In this document: positions 3,877 to 37,849 of the stretch, piece after piece
How the letters are laid out: the number at the start of each line of letters is the position of its first letter
Position numbering within the stretch: the stretch's first letter is position 1
Assembly: GCA_027475525.1 (NCBI GenBank)
Contig: JAMWFC010000090.1
Coordinates: forward strand, 434,001-498,000
Reading direction: 5' to 3'
Source of the DNA: Macrolepiota albuminosa
Taxonomy: Eukaryota > Basidiomycota > Agaricomycetes > Agaricales > Agaricaceae
DNA: 64,000 nt
Made by a program: the position numbers and the translations under genes
The notes under the pieces: model-generated
Database searches by the model: none
Seen by the model: the letters and a program-made list of their open reading frames with translations, nothing else
Told to the model about the DNA's origin: nothing

Positions 3877-4030
3877 CCCTCTCCTGGTGTCAGGCTGTCG
3901 TGTCCGTTGGACATATTGCCTTCTCATCTCGTCGATGGGCGTTATCCCATCGACCCTCTCCTGGTGTCAGGCTGTCGTGTCCGTTGGACATATTGCCTTC
4001 TCATCTCGTCGATGGGCGTTATCCCATCGA
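3877..4030. repeat. 77-base perfect tandem duplication (copies 3877-3953 and 3954-4030)
   Basis: Adjacent identical copies with period 77, starting CCCTCTCCTGGTGTC, at the 3' end of the Gag N-terminal reading frame. The duplication changes where that frame terminates. Confidence 0.95.
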
Positions 4031-5557: not shown

Positions 5558-7054
5558 CCACCTCTTCCATCTGTATTGCGAATGTCATGTGGAAGAAAAG
5601 CATATTGCCCAACAATTGGATACCCTTTTGCAGTCCCAAAACTTGAGAGCTTTGTCTTATCGGCATAAATAATAAGCGATAATAGTTTAGCTGCTGGGTT
5701 GTTTGGTATATGTGACTACAATAAAAGATAAATCTGTAAAAGTTTTATCTAGAGTGGGCAACATACCTGAGCCTCCCAGGCCTCATCACCTGTCCAGGGC
5801 TCGGTGACAAATTGCTCCCAAGCAGTTCCTGTCCACCTGTAATGTTTCTGTGCATCCCACACAATGTATGGTGATATTATAGGATCATCGACAACATTTT
5901 TGAGGGCCCAGTCCCATGGATCGCGCACACTTATCTCAAAGTCTCGTAAAACTCCCTTATACGGAACCTGATAGGACTGTTTCTTAAACTGACAAATTAT
6001 TGTTAAACAAATCCAACATGTAGATAATTAAAATAATACTCACTCGGGTTTGAAGCTCAGATGCTTTTTCCCAAGTCTTTTTCAACTCAGCACCATTTTT
6101 CAGGGTGAAAGATCTTCATTGTTGCACGCAAGCTCAGATGCTTTTTCCCAAGTCTTTTTCAACTCAGCACCATTTTTCAGGGTGAAAAGATCTTCATTGT
6201 TGCACGCAACAGCTCGATGGAATAACTTGATGAGGCGATCTAATTGAGACTTGTTAAGAGCTGCTTCAAGTCCCAGTTCTGCAATTTCGAAATCGAGTCG
6301 TGATTTAAAAGGCTTCCAAGGTTTGAAATCCGGAAGTGGCTTTGTTTTTTGAGGAAAGCAATGACTATACAATCCTATCTTAGTTGGTATACCTGAGTGT
6401 GGATGGTATTCTACTTTGAAGAGCTCTTCAACAGAATCCGAATCATCTAAGTCATGGACAGGTAAACTGTGAGCATCTTCAAAATCGTCAGCCTGTAAAA
6501 TAGCTTCATTCAGGCCTCTCTAAGAGAACTCAAGTCAAGCCATGAATATAATGATCAACTCGCGCTTACCTCTGCTTCATCTGTAAATGCAGGCACCAGT
6601 GACGCGTCATTAAAGTCAGATCCAGAACCACCCAGATTGGCATTTGCTATTACGATGGTGAGTGCATCAAGGATATTAGTAAGTAATTCAGTTATCAAAC
6701 ATTATCAGTGCATACCTATCCCATAACATCTGAATTGAGGCTCAATGGTAATATTAGTATCTGCTGCGTGCTCTCCTGGTGTGCGATGATACTCAGAACC
6801 ACGGCCTTTAAATGGGTTTTCCGAAACCACTATTAGCTTCCAGACTTGGGAAGAAGTCTTTAAGTTTTCACGTTACCTGTGCGTTGCATTAAGGAGTCAA
6901 ACCGTTCTAGAAACACTGCATCCTGTCGTGTTCGTTCTTGTCTTCCCAGGCAAGCTTTCCTGTGTGCCCCGATTCCCCGCCTCTTGCAAATTTCCCCACA
7001 AGTCTCGCACCTTGCATAGCCATATGGTGTTGACGGCGGAGGGGGGACGTTCAT
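5558..7054 (-). pseudogene. Plavaka-type DNA transposase, N-terminal half, cut by a retroelement insertion
   Basis: Spliced translation from the ATG at 7054 gives a family-typical N-terminal zinc finger (CETCGEICKRRGIGAHRKAC, residues about 16-35). Further exons near 6840-6722, 6645-6570 and 6495-6050 follow, with VEYHPHSGIPT and the Plavaka signature PFKSRLDFEIAEL. The next exon (5990-5767) has YKGVLRDFEISVRDPWDWAL, YIVWDAQKHYRW and FVTEPWTGDEAWEAQ. The last has IIYADKTKLSSFGTAKGYP and LPHDIRN and ends at 5558. Plavaka elements are basidiomycete cut-and-paste DNA transposons. Introns have good GT-AG ends (e.g. CAG/GTATGT near 5767). The C-terminal half is missing because the minus-strand retroelement begins at 5557. 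A 77-base duplication lies in the central exon. Confidence 0.85.
6055..6209. repeat. 77/78-base tandem duplication inside the Plavaka exon
   Basis: First copy 6055-6131 (77 bases), second 6132-6209 (78 bases). They are identical except for one extra A in the second copy (GTGAAAG versus GTGAAAAG). The exon reads through when only one copy is kept. Confidence 0.9.
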
Positions 7055-11829: not shown

Positions 11830-12565
11830 ATTTGAAATACTATTTTGTAATACCTATATAAACTCGCTACCATTGTTTACTCATTAGTTCTTCCCAATTG
11901 CAGAGCTTACAGCTGTTCTCTCTTGTGACCTCACCGTGACTCGCTGAGGTTGCAGGTTGACTGGTAATACATCCCTGTCATCCCTTTCTCGCTTAGTTCA
12001 TCCTCGAGTTACATGTGCCAGTTCAGTGCATCAAGGAAAAGCAATACACTCTGGCTCCTTGTAGAGTTACTCTGTTTTCAAGGAGGTCAGCCTTGTGGAA
12101 TGACATACCTGGCAATATCTGGACACATAGATCTTGGTGAAGCAAACAATGCTGCCGAAGTTGTGGAATTGGACCCCGAGGCTTCGCTCATAGTAAGAAG
12201 ACGACGATCCAGAAGAGATGGCAGGTCTAGACGCCGATCCAGAGGAGTGCGTAGACCAAAGAGGCCGAGGCTACGCTCATAGTGGCGCTATAATGATCCC
12301 TTCTTCAAGGCTTCTTCATCCTCAACTCAAAGCGATACTGAACCTAAGAGGAACTCTAGGAGCATCTTCTACTTCATGCTAGTGTTCTTTCATCTAGGAC
12401 TTGGAAGAGCGTCTTTTGTTCAAGTAGATGCTTCAGTGTCATAGTCTTAATTCTTGTTCGGACAATCTTATAACATGGATCCTGTGTCATCCTATCCTTC
12501 ATGAACCTTTTCTGTTGACCACGATATCTGTTCTGAGAATTCCGAATGACCGTCCGTCAACTTGA
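11830..12565. other. Gene-free flank of the LTR retrotransposon
   Basis: I see no supportable gene. The short Arg-rich open frame at 12013-12282 has no recognisable domain and low-complexity content. The last four bases, TTGA (12562-12565), are the left copy of the target duplication. Confidence 0.5.
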
Positions 12566-13559
12566 TGATACGACACTGTACCAGCAGTCAGGGACAAAAC
12601 ATGCACCAGAAGTCAAAATAAACATTTAATCATAGGCTGAAAACTGTAAGCCTCCTGGTAGCAGTCTCAACAAATATCTATCTCTGAAAATATCCCAACA
12701 AATACACAGAAAAGTACAGAACAACAGGCAGGGACCGGCTCAAACTATCAGCTCAACAATAGTCTAACCACTGTCATGGAGAGGAAAAGCATGGAAGCTG
12801 GTAATGGACGAAACAGGATTGGACGGAACAGGATGAAATTGGGAAATTATTATATTCATTCGATATTGTAATTCTCAATTTCATCATCAAATCAGTCAAT
12901 GTTCGGCAATGGACGGAATAGGATGAAATTGGGAAATTATTATATTCATTCAATATTATAATTCTCAATTTCATCGTCAAATCAGTCAATGTTCGATTTG
13001 ACAACAAGGAGGGGAAAAGGAAAGAAGTAGAGGATGCAGGGAGGCGCTCAAAGAGGAAAGAAGGATCCATGAATTAGATCAGGCTAAATGGAGCTCAAGC
13101 AAATGGAGAAGCGGCAATCAGAAACATCCGGAAGAATGGTGGAACGGGTGGCACTGAAACAGGCCTCCCAAAAGGGAAATTGGACTATCAAATACGTTCT
13201 GGAAGTGGAAGAGTTTCCGACAAAGAGTCATATGTAGATAGTGGTCTGTGCACCAGAAAAACAGTATAAATAGCCCAAGTTTAGTAGAGAATGGACAGGC
13301 AATTGATAGGCAAAGGCTCGGTGATTCCCAGGGAGTGAATCGCTTAGGCCGGAGTTTGTTAAGAAACCTCGACTTGTGGGAATATTATTATTCTCATTCA
13401 ATATTATAATTCCTCAAAACCTCGGCGTTTTGCAAGATTATTAAACGCAGTCAAGATAATAATTATCCCTTTCGTCATCAAAGTCAGTGTGAATTCAAGG
13501 TCATATTCTACACTAGCAAGCCCCAGAACTATCAAGTAATACTTCTACCAAGTACTACA
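12566..13559 (+). repeat. 5' LTR
   Basis: 994 bases, TGATACGAC...TACTACA. It contains an imperfect 90-base direct repeat (units starting GGACGGAA at 12821 and 12911) and a TATA box near its 3' half. It matches the 3' LTR with about four substitutions. Confidence 0.95.
13265..13271 (+). promoter_or_regulatory. TATA box in the LTR (TATAAAT)
   Basis: TATAAATAGCCC lies about 290 bases before the LTR end and is conserved in the 3' LTR near 23398. It is the likely core promoter for the genomic RNA. Confidence 0.6.
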
Positions 13560-13561
13560 TC

Positions 13562-13580
13562 TGGAGCCCACCGCGAGGGG
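13562..13580 (+). promoter_or_regulatory. Putative primer binding site
   Basis: TGGAGCCCACCGCGAGGGG starts two bases after the CA end of the 5' LTR. The leading TGG matches the complement of a tRNA CCA end. The donor tRNA was not identified. Confidence 0.55.
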
Positions 13581-13743
13581 CTTTGGTTTAGCAAGTGACC
13601 AACAAGTTACACCGACATCAAGCTCATCATTGTGGACCATCAAGTCCGGTTCACATCAAGTTTAATACAAGATTTCATTTGCACCAAGAGGGTCTACCCC
13701 AGAAAGACTAAAGAGAACCGTGCCTAAGCAACGGGTCAACATC

Positions 13744-15180
13744 ATGGAGCACGTCCGCAAGCCCGTAACCCGTAGCACCAAGACCACGACACTCAGTAGT
13801 GCCAGGGACCCAGAACAGATCTTGAGATCTAGCAGAAAGCGTACATCCAACAATATCAATATTTCAAGTATAAATACATCAAATACACAAAATCCAACAC
13901 AAAATATGCCTGCCGAAATAGTGAGACAAAAGCTGCCACTATCAACAAGTCGTGACGCTCCTCGGTTCACCCATACACAGCCTACAGAAGTACGGCGCTT
14001 CCTTCGAAAGATGGAGAGCCTCTTCAAGGCTGCAGGGATCAATGATGACCAGGAACGGAAGGACAAGTTGACGGAATATGTGGACGCTGAGACAGATAGT
14101 GAGTGGAGAGGGTTAGATAGCTTTGGGGACGAATCTACGTATGACAATTTTGTCAAAGAAATACAAAGTTCTTACCCTGAAGCAATCTCAGATGAGGGAA
14201 GCATGGCAGTGCTTGATCGGATCTGTCAAGAGCATGCACGTTTAGGGCAGCATGACACAGAAGAAATTCATGCGCTTGTTCGGAAATTCCGGGCTGAGGC
14301 AAAGAAGTTGACAGGGGTGCTAGGGAATGGAGCATTGGTGGACAAATTTACCAAGTGCTTCACACCAGCATTCCGTGAGCTAATCTTAGCACAAGCCTTG
14401 CAAAAGTACGGACATTACAGTGATGTATCTAGGAGACGACACAAAGATGACAGATATGATCTAAAAGAAGTTATAAATATCGTGTCTATTTTAGTCGACT
14501 CTGGAACATCGTTCCGAGATGATGAGGGAACAAAAGAGAGAGCTCTGGGGGTGATCAAGGTTAAGCAGGAGGTTGACCTGGAGACTGAGGGAAGGTTAGC
14601 CAACTTGCAGGATGGAGTCATGGCTCTGGGGAAGGAGATGAGCAGTCTGAGGGGGTTCATGCAGACAATGAATAATGAGTGGAAGGCAAAGAGTCAGGCT
14701 CCCATGCAGGGAAGTCTGCAGAATAGGATGGGGATGCCTGCTCAGGCCTTGCAGACTGTTCAGTTTCCAGGAGGCAACAGTTCAGCAGCAGGAATAAACT
14801 GTTATCATTGTTGGGAGTTGGGACACAGGACCAATGACTGTGAATACCTCAGGACTCAAGTCCAAGAGGGCAAGCTTATTCTTTTTGAAGGCAGGCCTAG
14901 GCTACCTTCTGGGGATCCTATCCCCAGGAGTCCACCTAATGTGTCTCCCAAAGAGAGGGTCAATGCTATCATGGATCCTAAGGCTGCTGCCTTCTATGGC
15001 TGGGTTGAAGAGCCAGTCACTGTTGTGCCTAGTGTGTCTACCTATGTGCAGGCAGTGCCCAAAGAGAAGGAGGATTTGGAGAAGAAGATAGAAGAACTGC
15101 AGAGCTTGGTGGCAAGTCTGATAACTACTAGGAGTCAGACTTATGAGAAGAGCCCCCAGCAGAAGCAGGAGGGTTTTTAG
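13744..15180 (+). CDS. gag: Gag (capsid/nucleocapsid) of the LTR retrotransposon
   Basis: 479 codons from the first ATG in frame (13744; the frame is open from 13720). The N-terminal 60 residues are basic and Thr/Ser/Asn-rich. The capsid-like region follows (about 75-240) with EVRRFLRKMESLFKAAG and DNFVKEIQSSYPEA. A coiled-coil-like stretch and a CCHC zinc knuckle CYHCWELGHRTNDC (about residue 360) come next. The C-terminus is a Glu/Lys-rich helix. Gag builds the particle and binds the RNA. The reading frame stops at TAG 15178-15180, directly preceded by the heptamer GGGTTTT, so a fraction of ribosomes probably continues in the -1 frame into the protease. Confidence 0.9.
   Translation: MEHVRKPVTRSTKTTTLSSARDPEQILRSSRKRTSNNINISSINTSNTQNPTQNMPAEIVRQKLPLSTSRDAPRFTHTQPTEVRRFLRKMESLFKAAGINDDQERKDKLTEYVDAETDSEWRGLDSFGDESTYDNFVKEIQSSYPEAISDEGSMAVLDRICQEHARLGQHDTEEIHALVRKFRAEAKKLTGVLGNGALVDKFTKCFTPAFRELILAQALQKYGHYSDVSRRRHKDDRYDLKEVINIVSILVDSGTSFRDDEGTKERALGVIKVKQEVDLETEGRLANLQDGVMALGKEMSSLRGFMQTMNNEWKAKSQAPMQGSLQNRMGMPAQALQTVQFPGGNSSAAGINCYHCWELGHRTNDCEYLRTQVQEGKLILFEGRPRLPSGDPIPRSPPNVSPKERVNAIMDPKAAAFYGWVEEPVTVVPSVSTYVQAVPKEKEDLEKKIEELQSLVASLITTRSQTYEKSPQQKQEGF
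15171..15177 (+). promoter_or_regulatory. -1 frameshift slippery site GGGTTTT (gag/pro)
   Basis: In gag phase the heptamer reads G GGT TTT, fitting X XXY YYZ, and the gag stop TAG follows at once. In the -1 frame translation continues TTA GAG AAC and joins the protease ORF without a stop. A possible stem (ATGGTG at 15192 with CACCAT about 35 bases on) lies about 14 bases downstream. Confidence 0.75.
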
Positions 15181-15191
15181 AGAACTCAAGG

Positions 15192-16196
15192 ATGGTGGCA
15201 GATGGAAGAGTCCAGCCTGAATTGAGGACACCATTACCACCTGAGAGTGATCTGAAAAGGCAAAGGGGAGTTATAGAAGTAGGCAAAGGGAACCTGCCCT
15301 TTGAGCAGGTGCCTGCTGTCAATGGAGAGAAAATAGTAAAATTTCAAAGTGACAAGAAAGAGTTGTATCAGCCCAGAGTATGGCAGAGAAGGGAGGATGA
15401 GATTGTCAGCAAAATATTGGACAATGAGGTGACAATTTCTACAAGGGAATTGTTGAAGGTGCCAGCCTTGCAGGAGGCTCTGGAGAAGACTTGGAGGAGG
15501 AGGGAAGGTGCTGCCAAGTGGACAGCTGCCAAGGTCTTTGCACAGGAGGATAGAAGTGCCTCTGTAATGAGCCAGGTCAATATAGATGACTTGCCTCAAC
15601 CAGGGTACCATATCTCTCAGAGTGAAGAAGAAGGGGTTCCAAAGGGATCAGTGGTTCATGAGGACTGTGTGGCTACCTTCTTGGAACAGCTTCCACCAGG
15701 GGATAGGCCAGAAGTGGTCTATGTGGCCAGAGACTTGCAAGTGTTGAGGTCTCTGTACCCTAGTGTGAATGACCAAGCTAAGGTGGAGGCTATATTGGAC
15801 AGTGGGTCTCAGATTGTGTGCATGGCTTTGGACAAGGCATTAAGTCTGAGATTGACTTGGGATCCTGATATAAGGTTGCGCATGGAGAGTGCCAATCAGC
15901 AGGTTAATGAGTCTTTGGGGATGGCCAAGAATGTGCCCTTCAAGTTTGCTGAGGGTTTCACAATATACTTGCAAGTGCATATATTTGAGAAACCTGCTTA
16001 TACAGTATTACTGGGGAGGCCATTTGATACAGCCACTGAGAGTAATGTGCAGAACTTGAAGGATGGTAGTGCAATCATCACTATCAGGGATCCTAATACT
16101 GGGAAGAGGACTGCACTGCCAACTTATGAGAGAGGCAAGGCACCCCCTGGTGGCAACAAGGAGGAGTTGGGAAAAGCTTCAGCCTTGAGGAGTTGA
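15192..16196 (+). CDS. pro: Protease (pro) ORF, expressed from gag by -1 frameshift
   Basis: The frame is open from the gag end (15177 in the -1 phase); the first ATG is 15192, but an internal start is not required. A 185-residue N-terminal extension precedes a retropepsin domain whose active site is ILDSGSQIVC (about residue 203). The second strand motif follows as AYTVLLGRPFDTATES (about residue 275). Retropepsin dimers process the polyprotein. The ORF ends at TGA 16194-16196 and overlaps the pol frame, which is again -1. The slippery heptamer GGGAAAA lies 18 bases before the stop. A separate pro frame between gag and pol resembles betaretroviral organisation. Confidence 0.85.
   Translation: MVADGRVQPELRTPLPPESDLKRQRGVIEVGKGNLPFEQVPAVNGEKIVKFQSDKKELYQPRVWQRREDEIVSKILDNEVTISTRELLKVPALQEALEKTWRRREGAAKWTAAKVFAQEDRSASVMSQVNIDDLPQPGYHISQSEEEGVPKGSVVHEDCVATFLEQLPPGDRPEVVYVARDLQVLRSLYPSVNDQAKVEAILDSGSQIVCMALDKALSLRLTWDPDIRLRMESANQQVNESLGMAKNVPFKFAEGFTIYLQVHIFEKPAYTVLLGRPFDTATESNVQNLKDGSAIITIRDPNTGKRTALPTYERGKAPPGGNKEELGKASALRS
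16169..16175 (+). promoter_or_regulatory. -1 frameshift slippery site GGGAAAA (pro/pol)
   Basis: In pro phase the heptamer reads G GGA AAA, a canonical X XXY YYZ site. The -1 frame continues AGC TTC AGC and stays open into reverse transcriptase. A nested stem follows after four bases: CAGCCT (16180-16185) can pair with AGGCTG (16212-16217), enclosing TTGATC-CCA-GATCAA (16193-16207). Confidence 0.8.
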
Positions 16197-19100
16197 TCCC
16201 AGATCAAGGAGAGGCTGCTGTGATGATAGAGGGGAGTGAGGAGGAAGGTTTCTGGATCAAGGGGTACTGTGTCAAGGAGAAGAGTTTTGAGCAGCAAGAA
16301 CTCAGAGATGTGTACTTGGCTGCTTACCATGCTACTGGAAGAGAAGGAGAAAGGACAGGGCAGTTGCTGGGAGCTTACCTGAATGGAGAGCTAGGCTACC
16401 TACCTGAAGAGTTAAAGAGTGGGGGGGAGAAAAGCCAGGAGGAAACTGTACAAGTGTTTGGGAAATATAAGCCTGTTGCCAAGAAAGTTAGACCTGTGTT
16501 GGGTACTACACCAGAGGAGTTCAGGATAGAAAGGAATATCACTGGGGATCCTTTGAAGGACATGCCACCTTTGAGTCCACATCCACCTGAATTCAGACCT
16601 ACTGGGAGGTACACAGAGGAGTGCAAACAGATTATTGACCAAGCACATGAAGGGGAGTTTCTGTGGCCAGAAGAGAGGAAGTTACTGCACCAGTTGATGA
16701 TGCAGCAGAATGAGGCCTTTGCATGGAATGACAGTCAGAAGGGGAAGTTCAAAGAGGAATACTTCCCACCTGTTGTTATGCCAGTAGTACCTCACCAGCC
16801 TTGGGTGTTGAAAAACAGACCCATACCTCCTGGGAAGTACAATGACCTGTGCAAGGAGATTAAGAGGAAGTTGGAAGCAGGGGTTTATGAGAGGTCAAAT
16901 TCCTCATATAGGTCACAATGGTTCGCTGTTCTGAAGAAGGATGGGAAAAGTCTAAGGCTTGTGCACAGTTTAGAACCTCTAAACAAAGTCACTATAGCTC
17001 ATTCTGGAGTACCTCCTGCTACAGAAGAACTGGCCAACCACTTTGCTGGAAGAGCATGTGGTGGGATGTGTGATCTCTATGTTGGATATGATGAAAGGAC
17101 TTTGGACCCTAAGTCTAGAGACTATACTACCTTTCAGACACCTTATGGAGCTCTGAGATTGGTGACATTGCCAATGGGATGGACTAATTCAGTTCCCATC
17201 TTCCATGATGATGTTACTTATATCTTGCAGGATGAGATACCTCATGTCACTTGGCCTTATATTGATGATGTTCCAATAAGAGGACCTGAGACTAGGTATG
17301 AGTTGGAAGGAGGAGGATATGAGACTATTGCAGAGAATAAAGGGATTAGGCGCTTTGTATGGGAACACTTGAACAATGTCAATAGAGTTGTTCATATGAG
17401 ACTATTGCAGAGAATAAAGGGATTAGGCGCTTTGTATGGGAGCACCTGAACAATGTCAATAGAGTTGTTCAGCGCATCAAGTATGCTGGAGGAACCTTCT
17501 CAGGGACTAAGTCTGTGCTATGTGCAGATGAAATCACTGTAGTGGGTCACTTGTGTTCTTATGAGGGGCGCAAGCCAGAGACAAAGAGATATGCAGTGGT
17601 CATGAGTTGGGGAGACTGCCGCAATGTCTCTGAGGTTAGGAAGTTCTTGGGAACTTGTGGTACCTTCAGGATGTTCATCCAGGACTATGCCAAGATCTCA
17701 GAGCCTATCAATAGGCTCACTAAAGATGATGTGGCTTTTGTCTGGGAGGAAGAACAGAAGGAGGCCATGAAGGAGATGAAGAGGAGGTTAGCAAGTTGTG
17801 CAGCTCTAAGACCTATAGACTATGAGTCTGAAGGAGCTGTCATCTTGGCAGTAGACACTTCTTGGATGGCTGTTGGGTTTGGGATCTTCCAAGAAGACAG
17901 TACAAATCCAAAACAGAGGACTTGTGCTAGACTGGGGTCCATTACCTTGAATGAGAGGGAGGCTAGGTTTTCACAACCTAAGAGAGAGTTGTATGGTCTT
18001 ATGAGGGCATTACAAGTTAGCAGTTATTGGTTACTAGGGTGCAGAAAGCTTATCATTGAGAGTGATGCTAAATACCTCAAGGGCATGCTGAGCAACCCAG
18101 GAATAGGACCTAATGCTACTATAATGCACTGGGTAGAAGCTGTACTTATGTATCACTTCACCTTGAGGCATGTGCCAGGAAAGACTTTCAGCATGGATGG
18201 TCTATCTCACAGGGAGAAGCAACCAGGAGATGAAGAGTATCCTCCTGTGGACTCATCTTTACTGGATGATCCAAAGCCAATGTCCTTTGAGTATCCAGAT
18301 GAGATTAACAAAGTACCTGGCTGGGAGGAACATGTGCCCCTCAAGTTAGAGGACTTCATGGATGAGATTGATACAAGAGGAGGCTACTTGTTAGCAGTCA
18401 CTCCAGAGGATGTACAGGAGGAAGTGGATTTGGGTAGAGACAGGGAGCAAGGGATAGCCTTGGGCTTACAAGAACAGAGCACTAAAGTAGGGACTACACT
18501 GAATCCAGTAGCAGTCTTAACTTTATCTACACTCTTGTTGCCAGAAAGGCCCTCTGCCTCTACTGTGGAAGAGTACCAGGAAGAGAGGAGAACTGAGAAG
18601 GGAAAATCCTTAGATAACCTCTTACCACTAGTACAGGATTGGCTTAGGCATCCTGGAAAGGTACCCAGAGAGGTGAAAGAAGGACAATTTCTAAAGTTTG
18701 CAAGGCAGTTCTTCTTTGATCTCAAGGGAAGGTTTTACAAGAGAGGAGAAGAGGGGAAGCACAAGCTAGTCATAGAGAAGGACAGGAGGATGTATATGCT
18801 AAAGTCTGCTCATGATGCACTTGGTCACAGAGGGACTTTTGCAACTAAGGCTTTACTGGAGGAGAGGTTTTGGTGGCCAGAAATGGAAGCTGATGTAAAG
18901 TGGTATATAGACACTTGTCATGCTTGCCAAGTAAGGCAGAAAGTTGCAGTGTGCAGGCAGCCTGTGGTAGCCTACACTCCCAGTATATTTGAAACCATAC
19001 ACTTGGATACCATGCACATGACACCAAGTTCAAATGGGTGCAAGTATATTGTACATGGGAGGTGCGCTTTAACCTCATGGATGGAAGGTAGACCTTTGAA

Positions 19101-20081
19101 GAAGGATAACCATAAGTTGATTGGGCAGTGGTTGTTTGAAGAAGTGATCTGCAGATGGGGCTGTATAAGCACCATTGTAACAGATAATGCTGGGCAGTTC
19201 ACAAAAGTGGTACATTGGCTATCTAAGAAGTATGGGATACAGGGCATAACTATTGCTCCCTATAATTCTAGAGCTAATGGGAGGATAGAGAGACCACATT
19301 GGGATGTGAGGCAGGCCTTGTATAAAGCCTGTGAAGACAGAACCAAGTGGTACTGGTTCTTTTGGCATGTAATGTGGGCAGACAGGATTACAGTTAGGAA
19401 GAGATTTGGGTGTTCCCCATTCTTCTTAGTAACTGGAGCACATCCTATACTACCCTTGGACTTAGTGGAAGCCACTTGGCTAGTAGACTGGCCTGATGGA
19501 CCAGTGTCTACGGAGCACATCCTATACTACCCTTGGACTTAGTGGAAGCCACTTGGCTAGTAGACTGGCCTGATGGACCAGTGTCTACAGAAGACTTAAT
19601 TGGCTTAAGAGCTCAAGCGCTGGCAAAGCACTACCAGCATGTGGAGGAAATGAGGGCTAGAGTCAGCAAGGAGAAGTTGAGATGGGCAGAGAACTTCACA
19701 AGGGAAAATGAAGCCTCTATCAAGGAGTACAAGTTCAAACCAAGAGACTTAGTACTGGTTAGAAACATAGTGGCAGCTAAATCTCTAAGTGGGAAAATGT
19801 CTGCGCGCTATTGGGGACCTATGGTGGTGTTGACTAGGACTAAGGGAGGCAACTATATAGTGGCAGAGTTGGATGGTACTGTATGGCAAGAAAGAGTAGC
19901 TGCCTTTAGGGTTATACCTTACAAGGCTAGGCAGCAAATCACTCTGCCTACTAGTATAGAGGAATGGATTGATATTACTCCTTCTAAGCTACAAGAGCTA
20001 AGAGAAGAGAAGAATGAGGGACAGGTGGAGGAAGATCTCTACCTCCGGGGCATACACCTAGGGGAAGAACAGGAAGAGTAA
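16193..20081 (+). CDS. pol: Pol: reverse transcriptase, RNase H, integrase (two 77-base duplications break the frame)
   Basis: Collapsing the duplications at 17317-17470 and 19435-19588 gives one ORF of about 1240 codons. The RT region shows KNRPIPPGKYNDL, FAVLKKDGKSLRLVHSLEPL, FQTPYGALRLVTLPMGWTNS and the catalytic YIDD at about 17260. RNase H follows (LAVDTSWMAVGFGIFQED, 17845 onward; KRELYGLMRAL; LRHVPGKTFSMDGLSH). Integrase has the H2C2 finger (HDALGHRGT...CHACQ, 18811-18930) and the D, D, E residues in LDTMHM, VTDNAGQF and RIERPHWDV. The C-terminal part has MSARYWGPMVVL. Translation most likely starts by -1 frameshift from pro; the nominal TTG at 16193 is not a real start. All catalytic motifs look intact. 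Confidence 0.93.
17317..17470. repeat. 77-base tandem duplication in RT (two mismatches)
   Basis: Copies 17317-17393 and 17394-17470, starting ATATGAGACTATTG. They differ at two positions (GGGAACACTT versus GGGAGCACCT). This shifts the pol frame just after the YIDD motif; one copy removed restores it. Confidence 0.93.
19435..19588. repeat. 77-base perfect tandem duplication in integrase
   Basis: Copies 19435-19511 and 19512-19588, starting GGAGCACATCC. They cause a stop at 19540-19542; collapsing one copy joins the integrase core to its C-terminal domain. Confidence 0.95.
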
Positions 20082-21219
20082 CTCAGTCTTCCTGTCCCTA
20101 GAGCTCTGGGGTAGCTGGCAAAAGAGGGAAACACCTGGTAGTATTGTACTAGCTACTACAGTGGGTACAAGTAAACTACCAGGGAACGAGAGGAGACACG
20201 ACGGCGCGTCATCACGAAGTTGCTGAGAAACGTAACCACGTGCTAGTCACGTTGATGTCAGCCTGGGCGCCTGCCTTGGTAATCAAATCGTTGGTGCACC
20301 TGCTTATGTAACGTTGTCACGCATAACTAAGCACGTGTTTACATCAACAATTAAATACATCGACATGCAAATATTATTGTCAATGTATTGAGCATGTGGG
20401 AACTAAGTTGGCTGATGTGGGTCTTGAAATGGTGGAAAACATGGCAAAAGATGTATTAGTTGGACTACAGACAGGATGCAGTGTCTAAGGCGTAACGCAA
20501 AGAATTGGAGATGTTATGCAAAATGCGCTAAGTCAGAGTCGAACACAGGGTCAGCAGAACTGCTGATGGGAGCCCGGTGAGACAAAGACGTAAAAGTCAG
20601 AAGGGGATACCCTGCAACTGTTGTCTGCGCATGCGCGAGTAAGACGTCAAAAAGGGACACACGGGAATAAAAATGGGTGCAGGACACGGGAAAGAGTTCT
20701 GAGACAGCCGGAGTGTCTCAGACACGTCCAAATACTGCAAATGGAGTAGACCGTTCCGTCGTTCCGCGTGATCGGAAAGGTGAGGTGGATAGAGAGTTGC
20801 GAAGGAGAAGTAGCAAGCTGGCCAGAAGAAAAACTGAGAGCAAGTACAGAGAGGCAGGGTGTAAGGGAGAACACAGCAAGTAACGTCAGTGTGGGGGAAC
20901 AAAGAGTTACCCCACACGATCAGCTAAAAATGAAAGCGAGTAGTGGGGATCATGGTCCGAAAGATGGGAGGCAAACAGAAGCAGCCTTCTCTGGATGATC
21001 GGAACGAAAGAGAGAGGCTGTGACGAAAATAGAGAGCCAAGTAAAGAAGGAAAAGAAGTGATGGCAGAGAACAGATCATCGGATCAGCAGGGCTGATCAT
21101 GATCGATCAAGAAGACTTACATCACGCACACATCAAGCCAATTAAAGGCGTTGAACTCAAGTTATTGCACGCAGAAAGCAAGTTTATTAGGCTACGGAGT
21201 AGTAACAATACTATTGTAA
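20082..21219. other. Noncoding stretch between pol and the antisense gene
   Basis: I see no ORF with recognisable content on either strand; the short open frames (e.g. 20597-20917, minus) look random. It presumably forms the 3' untranslated part of the genomic RNA and the downstream region of the antisense gene. Confidence 0.6.
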
Positions 21220-22486
21220 CTACAAAGTAGCCTCAATAGCATTGTTTACCTCGTCAATCTTGGAATCTGGCCCAAGGATTTCAACATCCGGGCTTTCGAC
21301 GGCTGGCTGGGAGAACAGAGTAAGGGAGTGCGAGACGGAGCAGAACAAGTGGGAAGGACGAACCGACTTGGAAGGAGAGCCGACTTGAAGCTCTCCGATG
21401 CGGATCTCTGCATCGGAAAGAGCCTGGTTATCGAGTACGGTCTGAATGGCCTCGCGACGCGTGACAAGTTGTTTGAAGCGCTGTTGAGCAATGTCCAGCG
21501 TAAAAAGTTGCTGGCACACGGCGTCGTCGAGTACCTGAAGGTAGTCACGTAAGGTGGTGCGGGAGACTTTGCTGTCCTTAGCCAGAATTCTGTCGGTTTC
21601 GTCGAGTAAGGTTTGGGCACACGAGCCGTTGGGGCGGTACGAAGCTAGGGTAGCAAGAATCAAGACAGTTTTATGTAATGAGAAAAAGAGACGCACCAAC
21701 AGAGGATTGAAACCGTGGCCTCTTGGCATCAGGTGCTGCCTCAGGTGTGGGCTGGAGAGAGAGCGAAAAATGCGCAAAACGCGTAAATAATTCGTCGATT
21801 TGTATTTCTAGAAATAGAAAACAAGCTCACGTCGTTAGTCTTGCGCTTGGCAGGACGAGGGGATGACACACTCATCATTTCCACGTCGCTGTCACGCTCT
21901 TGGCGGCGGTCACGGGCACGACGAGCCTCATCACGGCGGCGGGTCTGGAAAGGAAGGGAGAAATTAGAAAAGAAGTGGATGGGGGGAAAATGCAAAGAGT
22001 GACCTCAGCGCGCTCTTTAGCAGCAGCTTGTTTGGCAGCTTCTTCGGCACGCTTGTCATTGATTAATTTCAAGATGCTGTCAGCAAAAATACACCAGTTT
22101 TTGAGGTTGGAAGAGGTCTGGAGGAGGCGACGCTCGATGCGGTCCTGGACTTTATAGAGAACATCATAAAGGCCACACTGCTCGGCAATGGCAGGGAAGT
22201 CCGAGTGATCAATGAAGATCTGGGGACAATGTGCAAAAAGTTAAACTTAGAACAAGAGCCAAAATTAGACATGACGCACAAGTTCGGCAGCTCCGAGATG
22301 CCGGGACACTAGAGTAGAGGACTCTTTTGCAAGAGCTTCCTCACAAAGGCGGGTGACAGCAGTGCCAAAAGCAGCAATGTGCTTGATGGACTTAATCTGT
22401 TGATCCTTATCACGGATAATGGCATTCTCAAGGAGAGAGTAGGGGTCGGTACCAAGGGATCTTTTGGGACCAGTAGGAGGAGCCAT
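21220..22486 (-). CDS. Antisense six-exon gene inside the retrotransposon, unknown function
   Basis: Exons (minus): 22280-22486, 22004-22219, 21831-21944, 21697-21751, 21364-21644 and 21220-21306. Together they give an uninterrupted 319-residue protein; every intron is GT-AG (5' sites GTGCGT, GTCACT, GTGAGC, GTGCGT, GTTCGT) and 51-66 bases long. The protein begins MAPPTGPKRSLG. It has a helical N-terminal half, an Ala/Glu/Arg-rich coiled-coil-like segment (EEAAKQAAAKERAE, then TRRRDEARRARDRRQERD), a basic nuclear-localisation-like DAKRPRF, a second helical region (TTLRDYLQVLDDAVCQQLF) and an acidic tail. No family is recognised. The gene reads opposite to pol and starts about 210 bases inside the 3' LTR. 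Clean splicing and frame argue for selection, either as an element accessory gene or captured host sequence. Confidence 0.75.
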
Positions 22487-22684
22487 GGGGGATGGTGAAC
22501 TAGGGATGTAGGGGATGATAGGAGGGGTTTAAATGGCCTTTGAGGTGACAGGGAGGACGGCAAAAACATGCAAAAGAAACCTACAAACCTTGCAGGAGGG
22601 CTGGACGAAAATTTTGATATGATGGCAGAGAAATGGAACTTGACCTAATCTGGAACTGTGAATGACTGAGGACAGTCTTTATTT

Positions 22685-22697
22685 GGTGGGGGGGAGA
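22685..22697 (+). promoter_or_regulatory. Polypurine tract before the 3' LTR
   Basis: The G-rich run GGTGGGGGGGAGA ends immediately at the LTR start, the expected primer for plus-strand DNA synthesis. Confidence 0.8.
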
Positions 22698-23691
22698 TGA
22701 TACGACGCTGTACCAGCAGTCAGAGACAAAACATGCACCAGAAGTCAAAATAAACATTTAATTATAGGCTGAAAACTGTAAGCCTCCTGGTAGCAGTCTC
22801 AACAAATATCTATCTCTGAAAATATCCCAACAAATACACAGAAAAGTACAGAACAACAGGCAGGGACCGGCTCAAACTATCAGCTCAACAATAGTCTAAC
22901 CACTGTCATGGAGAGGAAAAGCATGGAAGCTGGTAATGGACGAAACAGGATTGGACGGAACAGGATGAAATTGGGAAATTATTATATTCATTCGATATTG
23001 TAATTCTCAATTTCATCATCAAATCAGTCAATGTTCGGCAATGGACGGAATAGGATGAAATTGGGAAATTATTATATTCATTCAATATTATAATTCTCAA
23101 TTTCATCGTCAAATCAGTCAATGTTTGATTTGACAACAAGGAGGGGAAAAGGAAAGAAGTAGAGGATGCAGGGAGGCGCTCAAAGAGGAAAGAAGGATCC
23201 ATGAATTAGATCAGGCTAAATGGAGCTCAAGCAAATGGAGAAGCGGCAATCAGAAACATCCGGAAGAATGGTGGAACGGGTGGCACTGAAACAGGCCTCC
23301 CAAAAGGGAAATTGGACTATCAAATACGTTCTGGAAGTGGAAGAGTTTCCGACAAAGAGTCATATGTAGATAGTGGTCTGTGCACCAGAAAAACAGTATA
23401 AATAGCCCAAGTTTAGTAGAGAATGGACAGGCAATTGATAGGCAAAGGCTCGGTGATTCCCAGGGAGTGAATCGCTTAGGCCGGAGTTTGTTAAGAAACC
23501 TCGACTTGTGGGAATATTATTATTCTCATTCAATATTATAATTCCTCAAAACCTCGGCGTTTTGCAAGATTATTAAACGCAGTCAAGATAATAATTATCC
23601 CTTTCGTCATCAAAGTCAGTGTGAATTCAAGGTCATATTCTACACTAGCAAGCCCCAGAACTATCAAGTAATACTTCTACCAAGTACTACA
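22698..23691 (+). repeat. 3' LTR
   Basis: 994 bases, the same ends and internal 90-base repeat as the 5' LTR, followed by the TTGA target duplication at 23692-23695. Confidence 0.95.
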
Positions 23692-23889
23692 TTGAGCTTG
23701 TTATAGGTACTCTCTGCTTCTTCTGCGCTGATTTTTCCCCTCAGGAGATGCATACCATCTGTCAGACTGTTACGGCAACCTTGATGCAGCCAATGCATCA
23801 TGTTCAAGGATAAAATACCCTTCAACGTGACATGTGTGCAATAGGGACGATCCTCTTATAATGACAAACTTCTCGCCCACCATGTATCT

Positions 23890-26401: not shown

Positions 26402-29400
26402 ATGCAGAATATCAACACAAACCAAATGCAACGCGGGTTGAGGATGTTATCTTTAGGTACGCTCTTTTGACCATGGATCGCGATTACTAACGTCATTGGA
26501 ATGATAATCCAGATGACGGTGGTGTACGTGGACTGTCTGAGCTTATCATTCTCCGAGAAATCATGTTTCGTCTTATGCGCCTGGAGAACGCTAGCTCTCT
26601 GCCTAAGCCTTGTGATTATTTCGATATAATCGGTGGGGCTGGAACAGGAGGGTATGTGACAAGGTTCTCTACAAAATCGGATGTTCAATAATAGTATATC
26701 AGAGTAATTGCGTTGATGCTTGGTCGACTTCGGATGCCTATTGATGTGGCCAATGAGAAGTATGTCTTGTTCAGCAAGGAGGTCTACTCTGATGTCAAGA
26801 AACGGAGCCGTCGGGGTGAGAAGTTCAAAGCAACTGTCTTTGAGTCTAGCATGAGAGATATTGTACAATCTGCTGGATTTTCAGTGGATGTCATGATGCA
26901 AGAGGATGATCCTGTCTGCAGGAGGTACTTTAGTCTTTTTCATTGCTGCTTCTCAGCTGACACTGTACCATATAAAAGTTTTGTGGTGGCTCTTCCTTCT
27001 GCCAATATGACACCTCGTATATTCAGAACATATGAGGTACCAGCCAATCCAGGGTATGATTGTAGTGTGGTGCAAGCTGCTCGTGCTACCACTGCCACTC
27101 CTGATTTCTTTAAATATGTCTCTATTGTTTCTGGTGGAGTTCCTGAAACCTTTGTAGGTGCAAGTTTGGGTTATAGCAATCCAACCAACCTTGTTCTGAA
27201 AGAGGCTGTGATGGTTTTTGGTCTTTTTCAATCAGTAGCATGTTTGGTCAGCATAGGAGCAGGGCATCCTGGTCATGTTTTCTGGGAGCCTACTAAAGTT
27301 ATTGGCAAAAAAATGACAGGACTTCTTCATCAAATAGCTACTAATTGTGAAGAAGTAGCTGAGAATCTTGGAGAGAATTTTATGCAGATGCCTGGGTTGT
27401 TTTACAGATTCAATGTTGATCAAGGGCTTCAAAAGATGGCTTTGGATGATTGGAATAGGCAGGGAGAAATTCAAACACATTCTCTGTCCTATCTACAGAA
27501 GGCCAAAGTCACACAGGAAATAAACAATCTTACAGATACTTTATATAGTTGTCTTCAAAAGACTACTCTTGGAGTTTTGAGTAAGATATTCTAGTTAGTT
27601 GATGATATTATTTGCTAACAGTTATTAGAAGGTGGATCTATGCCTACTAGTCTTTCTAACCAACAAATGTCTTCTCATATTCTTGCACCAGTTCTTCTTC
27701 CTGTTATTCCTCCTCCATCTCCACTGTTTACTGGAAGAGTGGATATTCTGCTGCATCTTGACAAGTGCTTTGATCCTCATCAATCTTCATTAAAAATGGA
27801 AATGCAGCAATGTTGTGTGCTGCATGGCTTGGGTGGAGCTGGAAAGACACAAATTGCACGGCAATTTTGTCATAAATTCAAAAACAGGTATGAGACAGTT
27901 ATATTTTTCCCATAATATGGTTTTATTTAACCAACTAGATTTTCTTCTATATATATGATAGATGCTAGTTCCAAAGCATCAATCAAGCAGTTTTTGACTT
28001 TACTTGCTCAGAGTGTTAATTTGGCTGATACAACATCTGATGCTGCTCTTTTATGGCTTTGTCATCAAAAAAAAGAATGGTTAATGTTTTTTGATAATGC
28101 TGATGATCCTGATGTTGCTTTACAAGAATTCTTTCCAAAATGCAGTCATGGAAATATTCTTATAACAAGCAGAAATGAAACATTAAAACTGTGTGCACCT
28201 AGAAACCATTATAAAATTGGAGAATTAATAGCTGAAGACTCATTGGAAGCTTTTTATAAAGCCAGTCAGAGGCAAAAAACTGAACAAGCAGCTGTGACTG
28301 AGCTTGTTCAAGAACTGGGCTATTTGGCATTAGCTATTGTTCAGGCAGGAAGCTATCTCTTTCTTAATCAACATATTCAAGTAAAGCAGTATTGTGAAAG
28401 GTTAAAAAAAAATAAAATGCAATATTTAGCAACAACTACAAAGCAGACAATTGATAACTATCAACTTTCTGTTTTTGCTACATGGGATCTGAGCTATCAG
28501 AAGCTAAATAAACAAGCAAAGGCACTTCTTATGTTATGTAGTGTGTTACACCATTCTAAAATACCTGTTTCAATTCTTGAAAGAGCTTGGAAAAAGCTAT
28601 TTGATACTCATGAAATAGAGAATGAAAAATTACATAAACTTTTTAAACTGTTTGAGAGAAAGTGGCTTGATACTCATAAAGTAAACACTCAAGAATTATA
28701 TAATTTTCTTGAAATATTTATAACAAATGATAAAAATTGGAGTAATGAACTACTTGAAAAAGCTGTTGATATGCTCAGATTATATTCATTGGTAGAAATA
28801 AGAGAAAAAGGAGATATAATGTTAGAAATTCACCCACTTGCTCATAATTGGACTTTTCAATTATTATCAAGAGAAGAGCAGGAAAAAGCTAAACAATGTG
28901 CACAACAACTGTTTTATTTTGTAGGAAATAAAAAAGTGTCATACAATGATGCAGCTCAATGGGTACTGCATATACAGACATTAATGAGTTTTCTAAATTA
29001 TAAATGTGACAACTACAAATTTTCAGAGAAATTTGTCAACATTTTTTGGGCTGCATACTTTTGGAATGATGCAGAGTACCTTCAGTTGCAAGTAGTTGAA
29101 GAGTATAAAAAAGTACTAGGAAATAGCCATTCAGGTACTATTCAAGCCATATCTAACCTTGCTGCAATATTTTGGCAAGGTGGAAAACTGGAGAAGGCTG
29201 AAAAGCTTCATCAAAAAGTGTTGACAATCAGGAGAGAAGCATTTGGAAGCAGTTATCCAGACACTATTGAAGCCATGTCTAACTTTGCTGCAACATTTAG
29301 ACAAAGTGGAAAGCTAGAGGAGGCTGAAAAGCTTGATCGAGAAGTGTTGACAATTAGGAAAGAAGCACTTGGAAGCAATCATCCAGACACTATTGAAGCC

Positions 29401-30903
29401 ATGTCTTACCTTGCTGCAACATTCAGACAAAGTGGAAAGCTAGAAGAGGCTGAAAAGCTTCATCAAGAAGTGTTGACAGTCAGAAAAGAAGCATTTGGAA
29501 GCAGTCATCCAGCCACTATTCAAGCCATGTCTTACCTTGCTGCAACATTTTGGCAAGGTGGAAAACTCAAGGAGGCTGAAAAGCTTAAACAAAAAGTGTT
29601 GACAGTCAGGAAAGAAGCATTGGGAAGTAGTCATCCAGACACTATTCAAGCCATGTCTTACCTTGCTGCAACATTCAGACAAAGTGGAAAGCTGGAGGAG
29701 GCTGAAAAGCTTGATTGAGAAGTGTTGACAGTTAGAAAAGAAGCATTTGGAAGCAGTCATCCAGCCACTATTCAAGCTATATCTAACCTTGCTGCAACAT
29801 TCAGACAAAGTGGAAAGCTGGAGGAGGCTGAAAAACTTGATCGAGAAGTGTTGACAGTCAAGAAAGAAGCATTTGGAAGCAGTCATCCAGACACTATTCA
29901 AGCCATGTCTTACCTTGCTGCAACATTCAGACAAAGTGGAAAGCTGGGGGAGGCTGAAAAGCTTGAACAAGAAGTGTTGGCAGTCAGGAAAGAAGCATTT
30001 GGAAGCAGTTATCCAGACACTATTGAAGCCATGTCTAACTTTGCTGCAACATTTAGACAAAGTGGAAAGCTAGAGGAGGCTGAAAAGCTTGATCGAGAAG
30101 TGTTGACAATTAGGAAAGAAGCACTTGGAAGCAATCATCCAGACACTATTGAAGCCATGTCTTACCTTGCTGCAACATTCAGACAAAGTGGAAAGCTAGA
30201 AGAGGCTGAAAAGCTTCATCAAGAAGTGTTGACAGTCAGGAAAGAAACATTTGGAAGCAGTCATTCAGCCACTATTCAAGCCATGTCTAACCTTGCTGCA
30301 ACATTCAGATACAGTGGCAAGCTGGAAGAGGCTGAAAAGCTTGATCAAGAAGTATTGACAGTCAGGAAAGAAGCATTTGGAAGCAGTCATCCAGACACTA
30401 TTCAAGCCATGTCTTACCTTGCTGCAACATTTAGATACAGTGGAAAGCTGGAGGAGGCTGAAAAGCTTGATCGAGAAGTGTTGGAGGTTAGGAAAGAAGC
30501 ATTTGGGAGCAGTCATCCAGCCACTATTCAAGCCATGTCTAACCTTGCTGCAACATTCAGACAAGGTGGAAAACTCAAGGAGGCTGAAAAGCTTGAACAA
30601 AAAGTGTTGATGGTCAGAAAAGAAGCATTTGGAAGCAGTCATCCAGCCACTATTCAAGCCATGTCTAATCTTGCTGCAACATTCAGACAAAGTGGAAAAC
30701 TGGAGGAGGCTGAAAAGCTTGATCAAGAAGTGTTGACAGTCAGGAAAGAAGCATTTGGAAGCAGTCATCCAGATACTATTCAAGCCATGTCTAACCTTGC
30801 TACAACATTTAGACAAAGTAGAAAGCTGGAGGAGGCTGAAAAGCTTGAACAAGAAGCATTGAGATTAAGAAAGAAGCAGTTGAAAGTAGTTATTAAAATC
30901 TAG
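26402..30903 (+). CDS. NLR-type gene A: pseudo-patatin / NB-ARC / TPR, with one premature stop
   Basis: Exons 26402-26456, 26513-26651, 26703-26924, 26979-27580, 27629-27887 and 27939-30903 give a continuous 1413-residue frame apart from one TGA. The patatin-like domain (residues 1-339) has the oxyanion loop LSLDDGGVRG, then GGAGTGG where GxSxG is usual, and FVGASLGYSNP where the catalytic Asp is usual. NB-ARC follows with the P-loop GLGGAGKTQI, Walker B-like WLMFFDNADDP, GNILITSRN and LGYLALAIVQAGSYL. Fourteen TPR units of 42 residues close the protein. Patatin/NB-ARC/TPR proteins are fungal STAND receptors, thought to sense non-self and trigger cell death. TGA at 29716-29718 replaces the CGA of sister repeats, leaving about 1018 residues unless it is read through. 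The 27580/27629 splice is the least certain. Confidence 0.85.
29119..30890 (+). repeat. Array of 14 TPR repeats, 126-base period
   Basis: Each unit encodes 42 residues on the pattern SSHPDTIQAMSYLAATFRQS then GKLEEAEKLDREVLTVRKEA, the TPR form of kinesin light chain-like fungal NLRs. A two-unit block near 29243-29484 recurs virtually identically 756 bases (six units) later, near 29999-30240. Confidence 0.95.
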
Positions 30904-37179: not shown

Positions 37180-37360
37180 CTGCGCTGCGTGCCTTCGGCA
37201 CGCAGCTAGCATCTCGTTGGGGGCTTCGCCCCCAAACCCCCCCCAACTAAGCCTCCACCCTAACCTCACTTCGTTCGGTTAGGGCTCCAAGTATGTATAA
37301 GTAATTCAGCCTCCACCTTAACCTCACTTCGTTCGGTTAAGGCTCCAAGTATGTATTTCT
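37180..37360. repeat. Short inverted repeats ahead of the satellite
   Basis: Hairpin-capable stretches: CTGCGTGCC-ttc-GGCACGCAG, GGGGGC-ttc-GCCCCC, and CCCTAACC...GGTTAGGG around CTCACTTCGTTC. The last is the progenitor-like form of the satellite hairpin that follows. Confidence 0.7.
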
Positions 37361-37380
37361 CAAGTCAGTGCTCAATCCTG

Positions 37381-37840
37381 GCCTCAACCTCACTTCGTTC
37401 GGTTAAGGCCTCGGTATTTCCCAACTCAGTGCTCAATCCCGGCCTCAACCTCACTTCGTTCGGTTAAGGCCTCGGTATTTCCCAACTCAGTGCTCAATCC
37501 CGGCCTCAACCTCACTTCGTTCGGTTAAGGCCTCGGTATTTCCCAACTCAGTGCTCAATCCCGGCCTCAACCTCACTTCGTTCGGTTAAGGCCTCGGTAT
37601 TTCCCAACTCAGTGCTCAATCCCGGCCTCAACCTCACTTCGTTCGGTTAAGGCCTCGGTATTTCCCAACTCAGTGCTCAATCCCGGCCTCAACCTCACTT
37701 CGTTCGGTTAAGGCCTCGGTATTTCCCAACTCAGTGCTCAATCCCGGCCTCAACCTCACTTCGTTCGGTTAAGGCCTCGGTATTTCCCAACTCAGTGCTC
37801 AATCCCGGCCTCAACCTCACTTCGTTCGGTTAAGGCACTC
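37381..37840. repeat. 61-base tandem satellite with a hairpin in each unit
   Basis: Eight occurrences of GCCTCAACCTCACTTCGTTC at 37381, 37442, 37503, 37564, 37625, 37686, 37747 and 37808, exactly 61 bases apart and nearly identical. Each can fold through GCCTcAACC with GGTTaAGGC. Two diverged forms precede the array. No coding function is seen. Confidence 0.95.
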
Positions 37841-37849
37841 GGTACAAAC

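Follow-up and report, generated by a model that had tools for sequence, protein, structure and literature searches.

Reading frames and slippery sites of the element

We analyzed a window of 64,000 nucleotides (nt) from the agaric Macrolepiota albuminosa (contig JAMWFC010000090.1, forward-strand positions 434,001 to 498,000), which contains an 11.1-kb long terminal repeat (LTR) retrotransposon of the Ty3 type (Metaviridae) at window positions 12566-23691. Its gag, pro and pol genes are separate open reading frames (ORFs) and, as an earlier prediction made from the sequence had proposed, their coordinates place each of them in the -1 frame relative to the ORF that precedes it. A canonical slippery heptamer lies in phase at each of the two overlaps: GGGTTTT, read G_GGT_TTT and followed immediately by the gag stop codon TAG, and GGGAAAA, read G_GGA_AAA, with the pro stop codon TGA 18 nt further on. 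We regard it as highly probable that the best explanation of this arrangement is double -1 slippage by the ribosome, with stepwise output of Gag, Gag-Pro and Gag-Pro-Pol.

GGGTTTT is the sole canonical in-phase heptamer in the 478 codons of gag, and pro contains one other besides GGGAAAA. When codons were resampled over stretches equal in length to the two ORF overlaps, a canonical in-phase heptamer had a chance of p = 0.017 in the 11-codon gag stretch and p = 0.039 in the 22-codon pro stretch. The joint chance for both overlaps is about 0.0007, a figure in which the conservation evidence presented below is not counted.

The element has the features of the Ty3/Metaviridae group, namely LTRs bounded by TG...CA, a short target duplication and the domain order protease (PR), reverse transcriptase (RT), RNase H and integrase (IN). 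A Pfam scan of the pro ORF returned aspartyl protease models only, and no dUTPase domain was found with pro in that scan. For the pol of the window copy, Pfam identified RNase H and integrase zinc-binding models; its match to reverse transcriptase was weak. In another copy (L025), pol has Ty3 Gag-Pol (7q5b) as its best match among solved structures (E 3.1e-28, residues 231-670), with integrase at 812-1047 of the same pol by structure match, giving the order RT-RNase H-integrase. Coordinates of the features are collected in Table 1.

Table 1. Features of the Ty3-type element, in window positions.
Feature	Position	Strand	Basis or remark
Target site duplication, TTGA	12562-12565 (left copy); 23692-23695 (right copy)	n/a	Read directly
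5' LTR, TG...CA, 994 nt	12566-13559	+	99.6% identity to 3' LTR over 997 aligned nt
Putative primer binding site (TGGAGCCCACC...)	13562-13579	+	2 nt past 5' LTR; assigned from position
gag	13744-15180 (ORF 13666-15180, ATG 13744)	+	C-terminal end KQEGF-TAG (TAG 15178-15180)
pro ORF	15147-16196	+	Stop TGA; would be entered from 15171 via the shift
Aspartic protease domain of pro	about 15762-16025	+	Pfam
pol (RT-RNase H-integrase)	16130-20081	+	-1 frame of pro; broken by 77-bp tandem duplications in the window copy
gag/pro slippery site G_GGT_TTT	15171-15177	+	gag stop TAG is the very next codon
Possible gag/pro stimulator	15184-15248	+	6-nt spacer; fold z -2.38
pro/pol slippery site G_GGA_AAA	16169-16175	+	18 nt to pro stop TGA
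Two-part stem-loop	16180-16217	+	4 nt past pro/pol site; arms 16180-16186/16211-16217 and 16193-16198/16202-16207
Polypurine tract	22685-22697	+	Upstream of 3' LTR; read directly
3' LTR, 994 nt	22698-23691	+	Comparison with 5' LTR

Both junctions are conserved among copies of the element

A genome search with positions 15000-16400 returned at least 48 DNA matches, of which 20 copies of the element (family A) were retrieved at length for comparison. Both heptamers are kept in all 20, with TAG 0 nt and TGA 18 nt after them, and family A has a canonical X_XXY_YYZ heptamer in phase at each overlap. The net indel between the two sites is zero in every copy and pro is open over 349-350 codons in each, while pol is open in one frame over 1257-1265 codons in 12 copies and shorter (360-1158 codons) in the other 8. 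A whole-genome pattern search allowing up to 3 mismatches found GGGTTTT kept at 49 of 51 gag/pro junctions of family A and GGGAAAA at 46 of 48 pro/pol junctions, fractions that are upper estimates because the mismatch limit favors conserved places; a reversed control pattern had 0 matches in the genome.

The way in which the copies differ follows the same three frames. Among the 20 copies and two more diverged loci (L057 and L058), the numbers of variable sites at codon positions 1, 2 and 3 were 80, 65 and 241 in gag, 43, 29 and 68 in pro, and 17, 3 and 49 in pol. When third-position variable sites were followed in 150-nt windows, their coordinate class was first 0, then 2 and then 1, switching around the two heptamers, with a mixed signal in the windows adjoining the gag/pro junction and in a few within pro. 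Overall, the three frames are each used and constrained in family A, and the copies and the codon-phase switch show three successive -1 ORFs under selection as such.

Two related families in the same genome

A protein search with pro identified a second family (family B), whose 350-codon pro ORF has about 58-60% amino acid identity to that of family A and whose gag is about 34-45% identical (tblastn). The -1 step was seen as overlapping ORFs at the gag/pro junction in 7 of the 8 family B loci retrieved and at the pro/pol junction in 5 of the 8, the remaining loci carrying additional interruptions. The gag/pro junction reads AAG GAT TTT TGA, which is the relaxed heptamer form G_GAT_TTT with the stop codon directly next to it, and GGATTTT is kept in all 45 of the family B gag/pro junctions matched by pattern search. 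At pro/pol the two frames share 13 nt of open frame, AGC AAA ATT TT, in which AAA aligns with the AAA of the family A site; AGCAAAATTTT is kept in 46 of 49 pattern matches to this junction.

A third family (family C) is related to family A in pro and pol, has pol in the -1 frame and carries a site 18 nt before the stop, but differs in being without a gag/pro shift and in having GTGTTTT as its site. Its gag and pro form a single ORF of about 887 codons in many copies. Pol is in the -1 frame in 9 of 11 loci (6 of 6 in one set and 3 of 5 in another); of the two deviating loci, L039 has a stop separating gag-pro from a pol in the same frame, and L037 lies in another frame. In L044-L049 and other family C loci, GTGTTTT is the common sequence at the place of the shift, at the same spacing from the stop as in family A. 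The first three bases of this sequence do not suit a canonical heptamer. No full-length relative with all three ORFs in one frame was found as such among those compared, family C being the nearest case. A pro/pol shift thus appears to be common to families A, B and C, and a gag/pro shift to A and B. The sites with their phase, and for the most part their spacing to the stop codons, are conserved across families.

A stem-loop downstream of the pro/pol site

The original prediction had also placed a stem enclosing a hairpin 4 nt past the pro/pol heptamer. The sequence does contain this two-part stem, which comes out as the minimum-energy fold when its own 38 nt are folded, at -14.2 kcal/mol in family A and -12.4 kcal/mol in family B, and it aligns without gaps between the two families. 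For a covariation analysis, 7 sequences were picked for ungapped alignment (the window, L057, L058, L029, L031, L054 and L056), leaving out the other family A copies, L059, L060, L061, L042 and the family B loci nearly identical to those used. Over these 7 distinct sequences 95.6% of the cells were paired, a value that fell to 30-55% when the partners were slid along the sequence. Of 500 shuffles, 0 came up to the stem in the share of cells paired, in the count of doubly changed cells or in the covariation score, though the set is small and relatedness of the sequences inflates these statistics.

Three of the double changes separate family A from family B and one occurs in a single family B locus. 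Two of the three A/B changes lie in the inner hairpin, the first pair changing at synonymous Leu and Gln positions, and the outermost pair of the stem is unformed in family B. Among 35 six-bp hairpins of family A pro and early pol that fall in the ungapped A-B alignment, this stem alone was kept in family B with two two-sided changes; one other was kept, with one two-sided change. From these alignments, the predicted two-part pro/pol stem is conserved between families A and B.

Gag and Pro C-termini in relatives from other fungi and environmental DNA

Protein searches extended the comparison beyond this genome. With pro as query, 291 relatives were found, the best 120 of which include separate pro proteins of named fungi; among the matches listed are those of Tephrocybe rancida, Termitomyces, Arthromyces matolae and Tricholoma furcatifolium, and a large environmental pro group of about 385 amino acids (aa). 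The gag search, in which the candidates scored were those sharing the most words with the query, found at least 17 relatives. Three Termitomyces gags are 81-85% identical to the window gag, and other relatives from Termitomyces, Tephrocybe and Arthromyces are 40-53% identical; on this ground the host is probably related to Termitomyces. The Tephrocybe gag P0126 and pro P0001 carry neighbouring locus tags (DXG01_002738 and 002739), and their contigs are of equal length. A profile search of viral contigs for relatives gave no match, and the sole viral-contig match otherwise obtained (L043) was rejected on inspection as a chance match in a phage-like contig.

A GF or DF end is found in all 9 of the named-fungus gags whose natural stop lies close to where it was expected: three from Termitomyces have KQEGF, two from Tephrocybe and one from Arthromyces have NEKDF, one from Tephrocybe has HAKGF, and two from Termitomyces have SSKDF and NSKDF. 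The other 8 of the 17 comprise a gag-pro fusion (P0125), two sequences labelled partial (P0132 and P0134), one that falls short at its C-terminus (P0137) and four environmental sequences (P0127, P0128, P0135 and P0136). Of these environmental gags, P0135 ends in SGFN and P0136 in ADFQ, P0128 is an exception with EGI, and P0127 has another end. A further search with P0136, scored in the same way, found at least 261 gag relatives, and 116 of the best 120, query included, end in [GD]F plus 0-1 residue. As background, [DGN]F occurs in 0.96% of six-residue windows. Many of the sequences in these gag and pro sets are related among themselves.

These C-termini allow a more specific examination of the sites, since a heptamer starting with G requires a G as the last base of the codon that precedes [GD]F. 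The preceding residue can be encoded in this way in all 125 gag relatives that have the motif (out of 129 examined, the 120 together with the 9 named) and in all 108 pro relatives that have it (out of 120 examined). As an internal control, the rule was met by 56 of 70 internal [DG]F of the same gags and broken by 14, and the residues that it excludes make up 14-21% of these gags. In pro, the distance from F to the stop is exactly 6 codons in 103 of the 108 relatives with [GD]F, which corresponds to the 18 nt of families A and C. By a stricter definition of the tail, readable in 112 of 120 pro relatives, 103 have DF, 2 GF, 1 NF and 4 KF in the tail, and 2 have none of these.

Proposed decoding and alternative explanations

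Because the family A copies, family B, the stem and the C-termini of gag and pro agree, both shifts are very likely real and old. Site conservation, the codon-phase switch, the second family, the changes in the stem and the relatives' C-termini all support the two programmed -1 shifts that had been predicted. In the decoding that we propose, most ribosomes would read the genomic RNA as Gag, and a fraction would slip by -1 at G_GGU_UUU, directly ahead of the gag stop, to yield Gag-Pro. A fraction of the Gag-Pro ribosomes would then slip by -1 again at G_GGA_AAA to yield Gag-Pro-Pol. The adjacent stop codon, and perhaps a stem, may stimulate the first slip, and the two-part stem-loop four bases downstream may aid the second. 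The amounts would then fall from Gag to Gag-Pro to Gag-Pro-Pol, with capsid, protease and polymerase proteins standing in a three-step ratio, as in betaretroviruses. Actual slipping, its rate, and its stimulation by the stem and the stop codon are what we infer from the frames, the sites, their conservation and the compensated stem observed here.

Other routes between the frames can be weighed against the same observations. Ribosomes could terminate and then restart at a nearby AUG to make Pro, and perhaps Pol, and there is indeed a pro-frame ATG 11 nt past the gag stop in family A, while many environmental pro proteins start at a conserved M(A/M/I)AATR, although gene callers would pick an early AUG in any case. 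One of the 8 family B loci (L031) has AGG in place of the equivalent ATG, and reinitiation leaves unexplained the presence of heptamers in phase, the possible codon ending in G ahead of [GD]F in all 125 gag relatives with the motif and the spacing of 6 codons to the stop seen in 103 of the 108 pro relatives; we consider it very unlikely. Removal of introns, so that the mature mRNA has the frames joined, is less probable again. One GT..AG pair at the family A gag/pro junction (15032-15180) passes a loose filter for donor, branch and acceptor, and P0125 is recorded as a gag-pro fusion, presumably by way of a predicted intron, but no pair passes that filter at the pro/pol junction of family A or at either junction of family B (one sequence each), and introns would likewise leave the heptamers and their conservation unexplained. 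Splicing and reinitiation explain less than slippage does. An assembly error, or decay of single copies, as the source of the frame changes is refuted for both junctions: the assembly does hold frame-breaking 77-bp duplications (see below), but both junctions are without one, the same arrangement occurs in dozens of copies on many contigs, and the relatives from other fungi fit it.

Several observations nevertheless weigh against double slippage, or against parts of it. The family A copies are young, and their mutual agreement alone is weak evidence. While the copies of family A keep both heptamers and phases, and family B has GGATTTT at gag/pro, the pro/pol site of family B, A_GCA_AAA_UUU (A_GCA_AAA_TTT_TRA, L029:1948-1960), does not conform to X_XXY_YYZ, and the heptamers of other fungi and metagenomes are deduced from amino acids, at the protein level. 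Family B may cross pro/pol differently, by a P-site slip on A_AAA or otherwise, in which case double canonical slippage would not be general; this is compatible with double slippage in family A. Its overlap of only 13 nt would fit such a crossing, and AAA TTT would suit the KF kept near the end of 4 pro relatives, but the AAA codon and the downstream stem of family B are homologous to those of family A, and the same event at a weaker site is simpler. We view a different crossing in family B as unlikely.

The RNA structures also carry evidence on this side. Folding of the pro/pol junction had been suggested as a check, and the stem is kept between families A and B as described above, yet in a 65-nt window the family A sequence has an ordinary energy (z -0.17) and a competing fold is more stable than the stem, while the family B window is modestly low in energy (z -1.92). 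The minimum-energy fold of the 65 nt in family A was considered as a conserved structure and rejected, its pairs not being kept in family B. Two-sided changes occur in 4 of the 13 stem pairs, a number reached by 212 of 500 shuffles and so not unusual, and the double changes fall on essentially one branch. Five of the family A copies have U-G as the pair that closes the hairpin, and in one other (L026) that pair is disrupted; the decayed A-like loci L059-L061 lack the stem in register, with an indel in the stem in L059 and L060 and divergence past the first arm of the hairpin in L061. At the gag/pro junction, a possible stem lies 6 nt downstream of the site in family A (z -2.38), the value for family B is -1.22, and the two are not alignable; a stimulator at this site is not established.

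Relation to known frameshifting systems

Betaretroviruses such as mouse mammary tumor virus (MMTV) and jaagsiekte sheep retrovirus (JSRV) decode gag-pro-pol by -1/-1 frameshifting, as described in passages of PMC1224870. The resemblance to this arrangement that had been claimed for the element is supported, as both have successive -1 frames, two slippery sites and pro as an ORF of its own (passages of PMC1224870). Unlike these viruses, the fungal element is of the Ty3 type, its pro has no dUTPase found with it, its first site abuts the stop codon, and its stimulators are not shown as pseudoknots. It also has no long sense ORF after pol: the plus-strand ORFs of at least 80 aa in 20082-22000 are of 82, 110, 81 and 96 aa (no search aimed at env was made). 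The element is betaretrovirus-like in its proposed decoding and is not a betaretrovirus.

Among heptamers studied with mammalian ribosomes, G_GGU_UUU is one of the shiftiest, according to passages of PMC5009743. The same source reports that in pea enation mosaic virus (PEMV), changing the stop just after G_GAU_UUU to a sense codon drastically affects shifting. The fungal first sites resemble that of PEMV in having G_GAU_UUU or G_GGU_UUU with a stop 0 or 1 codon on (passages of PMC5009743). They differ in that a retrotransposon Gag-Pro is set here against a plant RNA virus, without sequence relation between the two. Dianthoviruses have sites similar to those of PEMV.

Single -1 shifts are widespread among animal LTR elements and known from fungal ones as well (passages of PMC5009743). 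Ty3/gypsy elements with a single gag/pol -1 shift are known from a 2003 survey, as described in PMC5009743, and from the insect CsRn1-like elements (passages of PMC2582038). The element described here shares with them a -1 shift downstream of gag and a Ty3-type pol, and differs from them in its two shifts and separate pro ORF. Dictyostelium Skipper was considered as a double-shift element and rejected, as it has two ORFs according to a passage of PMC5006619. No double shift described for a fungal or other LTR retrotransposon was found in the open-licence papers searched.

These comparisons suggest that an agaric Ty3-type lineage probably reached a betaretrovirus-like -1/-1 decoding independently, with the first site 0-1 codon from the gag stop and the second usually 18 nt before the pro stop. 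The heptamers would have been exchanged (GGGTTTT and GGATTTT at the first site; GGGAAAA, probably GGATTTT, AGCAAAA and GTGTTTT at the second) with position and phase fixed, and the gag/pro shift would have been gained or lost relative to the gag-pro-fused sister family. If so, fungal retrotransposons acquired on their own the betaretroviral way of setting the ratio of Gag, Gag-Pro and Gag-Pro-Pol. With two families that shift twice and a third that shifts once in a single genome, slippery-site turnover and the gain and loss of frameshifts would become testable, a comparison to which more than 200 listed gag and pro relatives, mostly environmental, can be added. The stop-adjacent first site would likewise provide a natural series on how a termination codon beside a heptamer affects slipping.

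Duplications and other features of the window

Two tandem duplications of 77 bp, one at 17317-17470 and the other at 19435-19588, break the pol of the window copy. At the first place, all 20 of the other copies compared have a single unit, versus two in the window copy; at the second, a single unit is seen in 19 of the 20, and L019 aligns differently. A period of 77 bp is the only tandem period that recurs at unrelated places, and the window holds 5 exact and 2 near-exact duplications of this length (1063-1216, 3877-4030, 6053-6209, 17317-17470, 19435-19588, 58799-58957 and 59511-59664), two of which sit inside a 126-bp repeat array. Of 34 other loci scanned (216 kb), 14 contain at least one (L009, L014-L019, L026, L028, L030 and L038-L041). 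These duplications are probably an assembly artefact (unmerged overlaps, k = 77) and not biology, and this may explain several apparent pol frame breaks in other copies. If they are an artefact, false frameshifts have been added to genes of this assembly.

A 90-bp tandem duplication lies within each LTR (12820-12995 and 22952-23127). Between pol and the 3' LTR, the minus strand carries an apparently intron-containing antisense gene (20084-22690), with ORFs at 21220-21807 and 21875-22240 and a first exon-like ORF from about 22486; it had no Pfam match. It resembles the antisense ORFs of plant Retand elements, as PMC11963269 describes them, but is fungal. The antisense stretch is found at about 20 other places with 73-96% DNA identity, many of which are retrieved copies of the element, and its central ORF is stop-free in 25 of 42 matches. 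In L009, L022, L026 and L028 the 3' LTR lies about 205-260 nt past pol.

Elsewhere in the window, a 126-bp (42-codon) unit forms two arrays, of about 14 copies at 29137-30890 and about 27 copies at 57584-61005, which from their sequence give the impression of recently amplified TPR-type repeats. A 61-bp unit is repeated 8.6 times at 37316-37844, with a 97% match.

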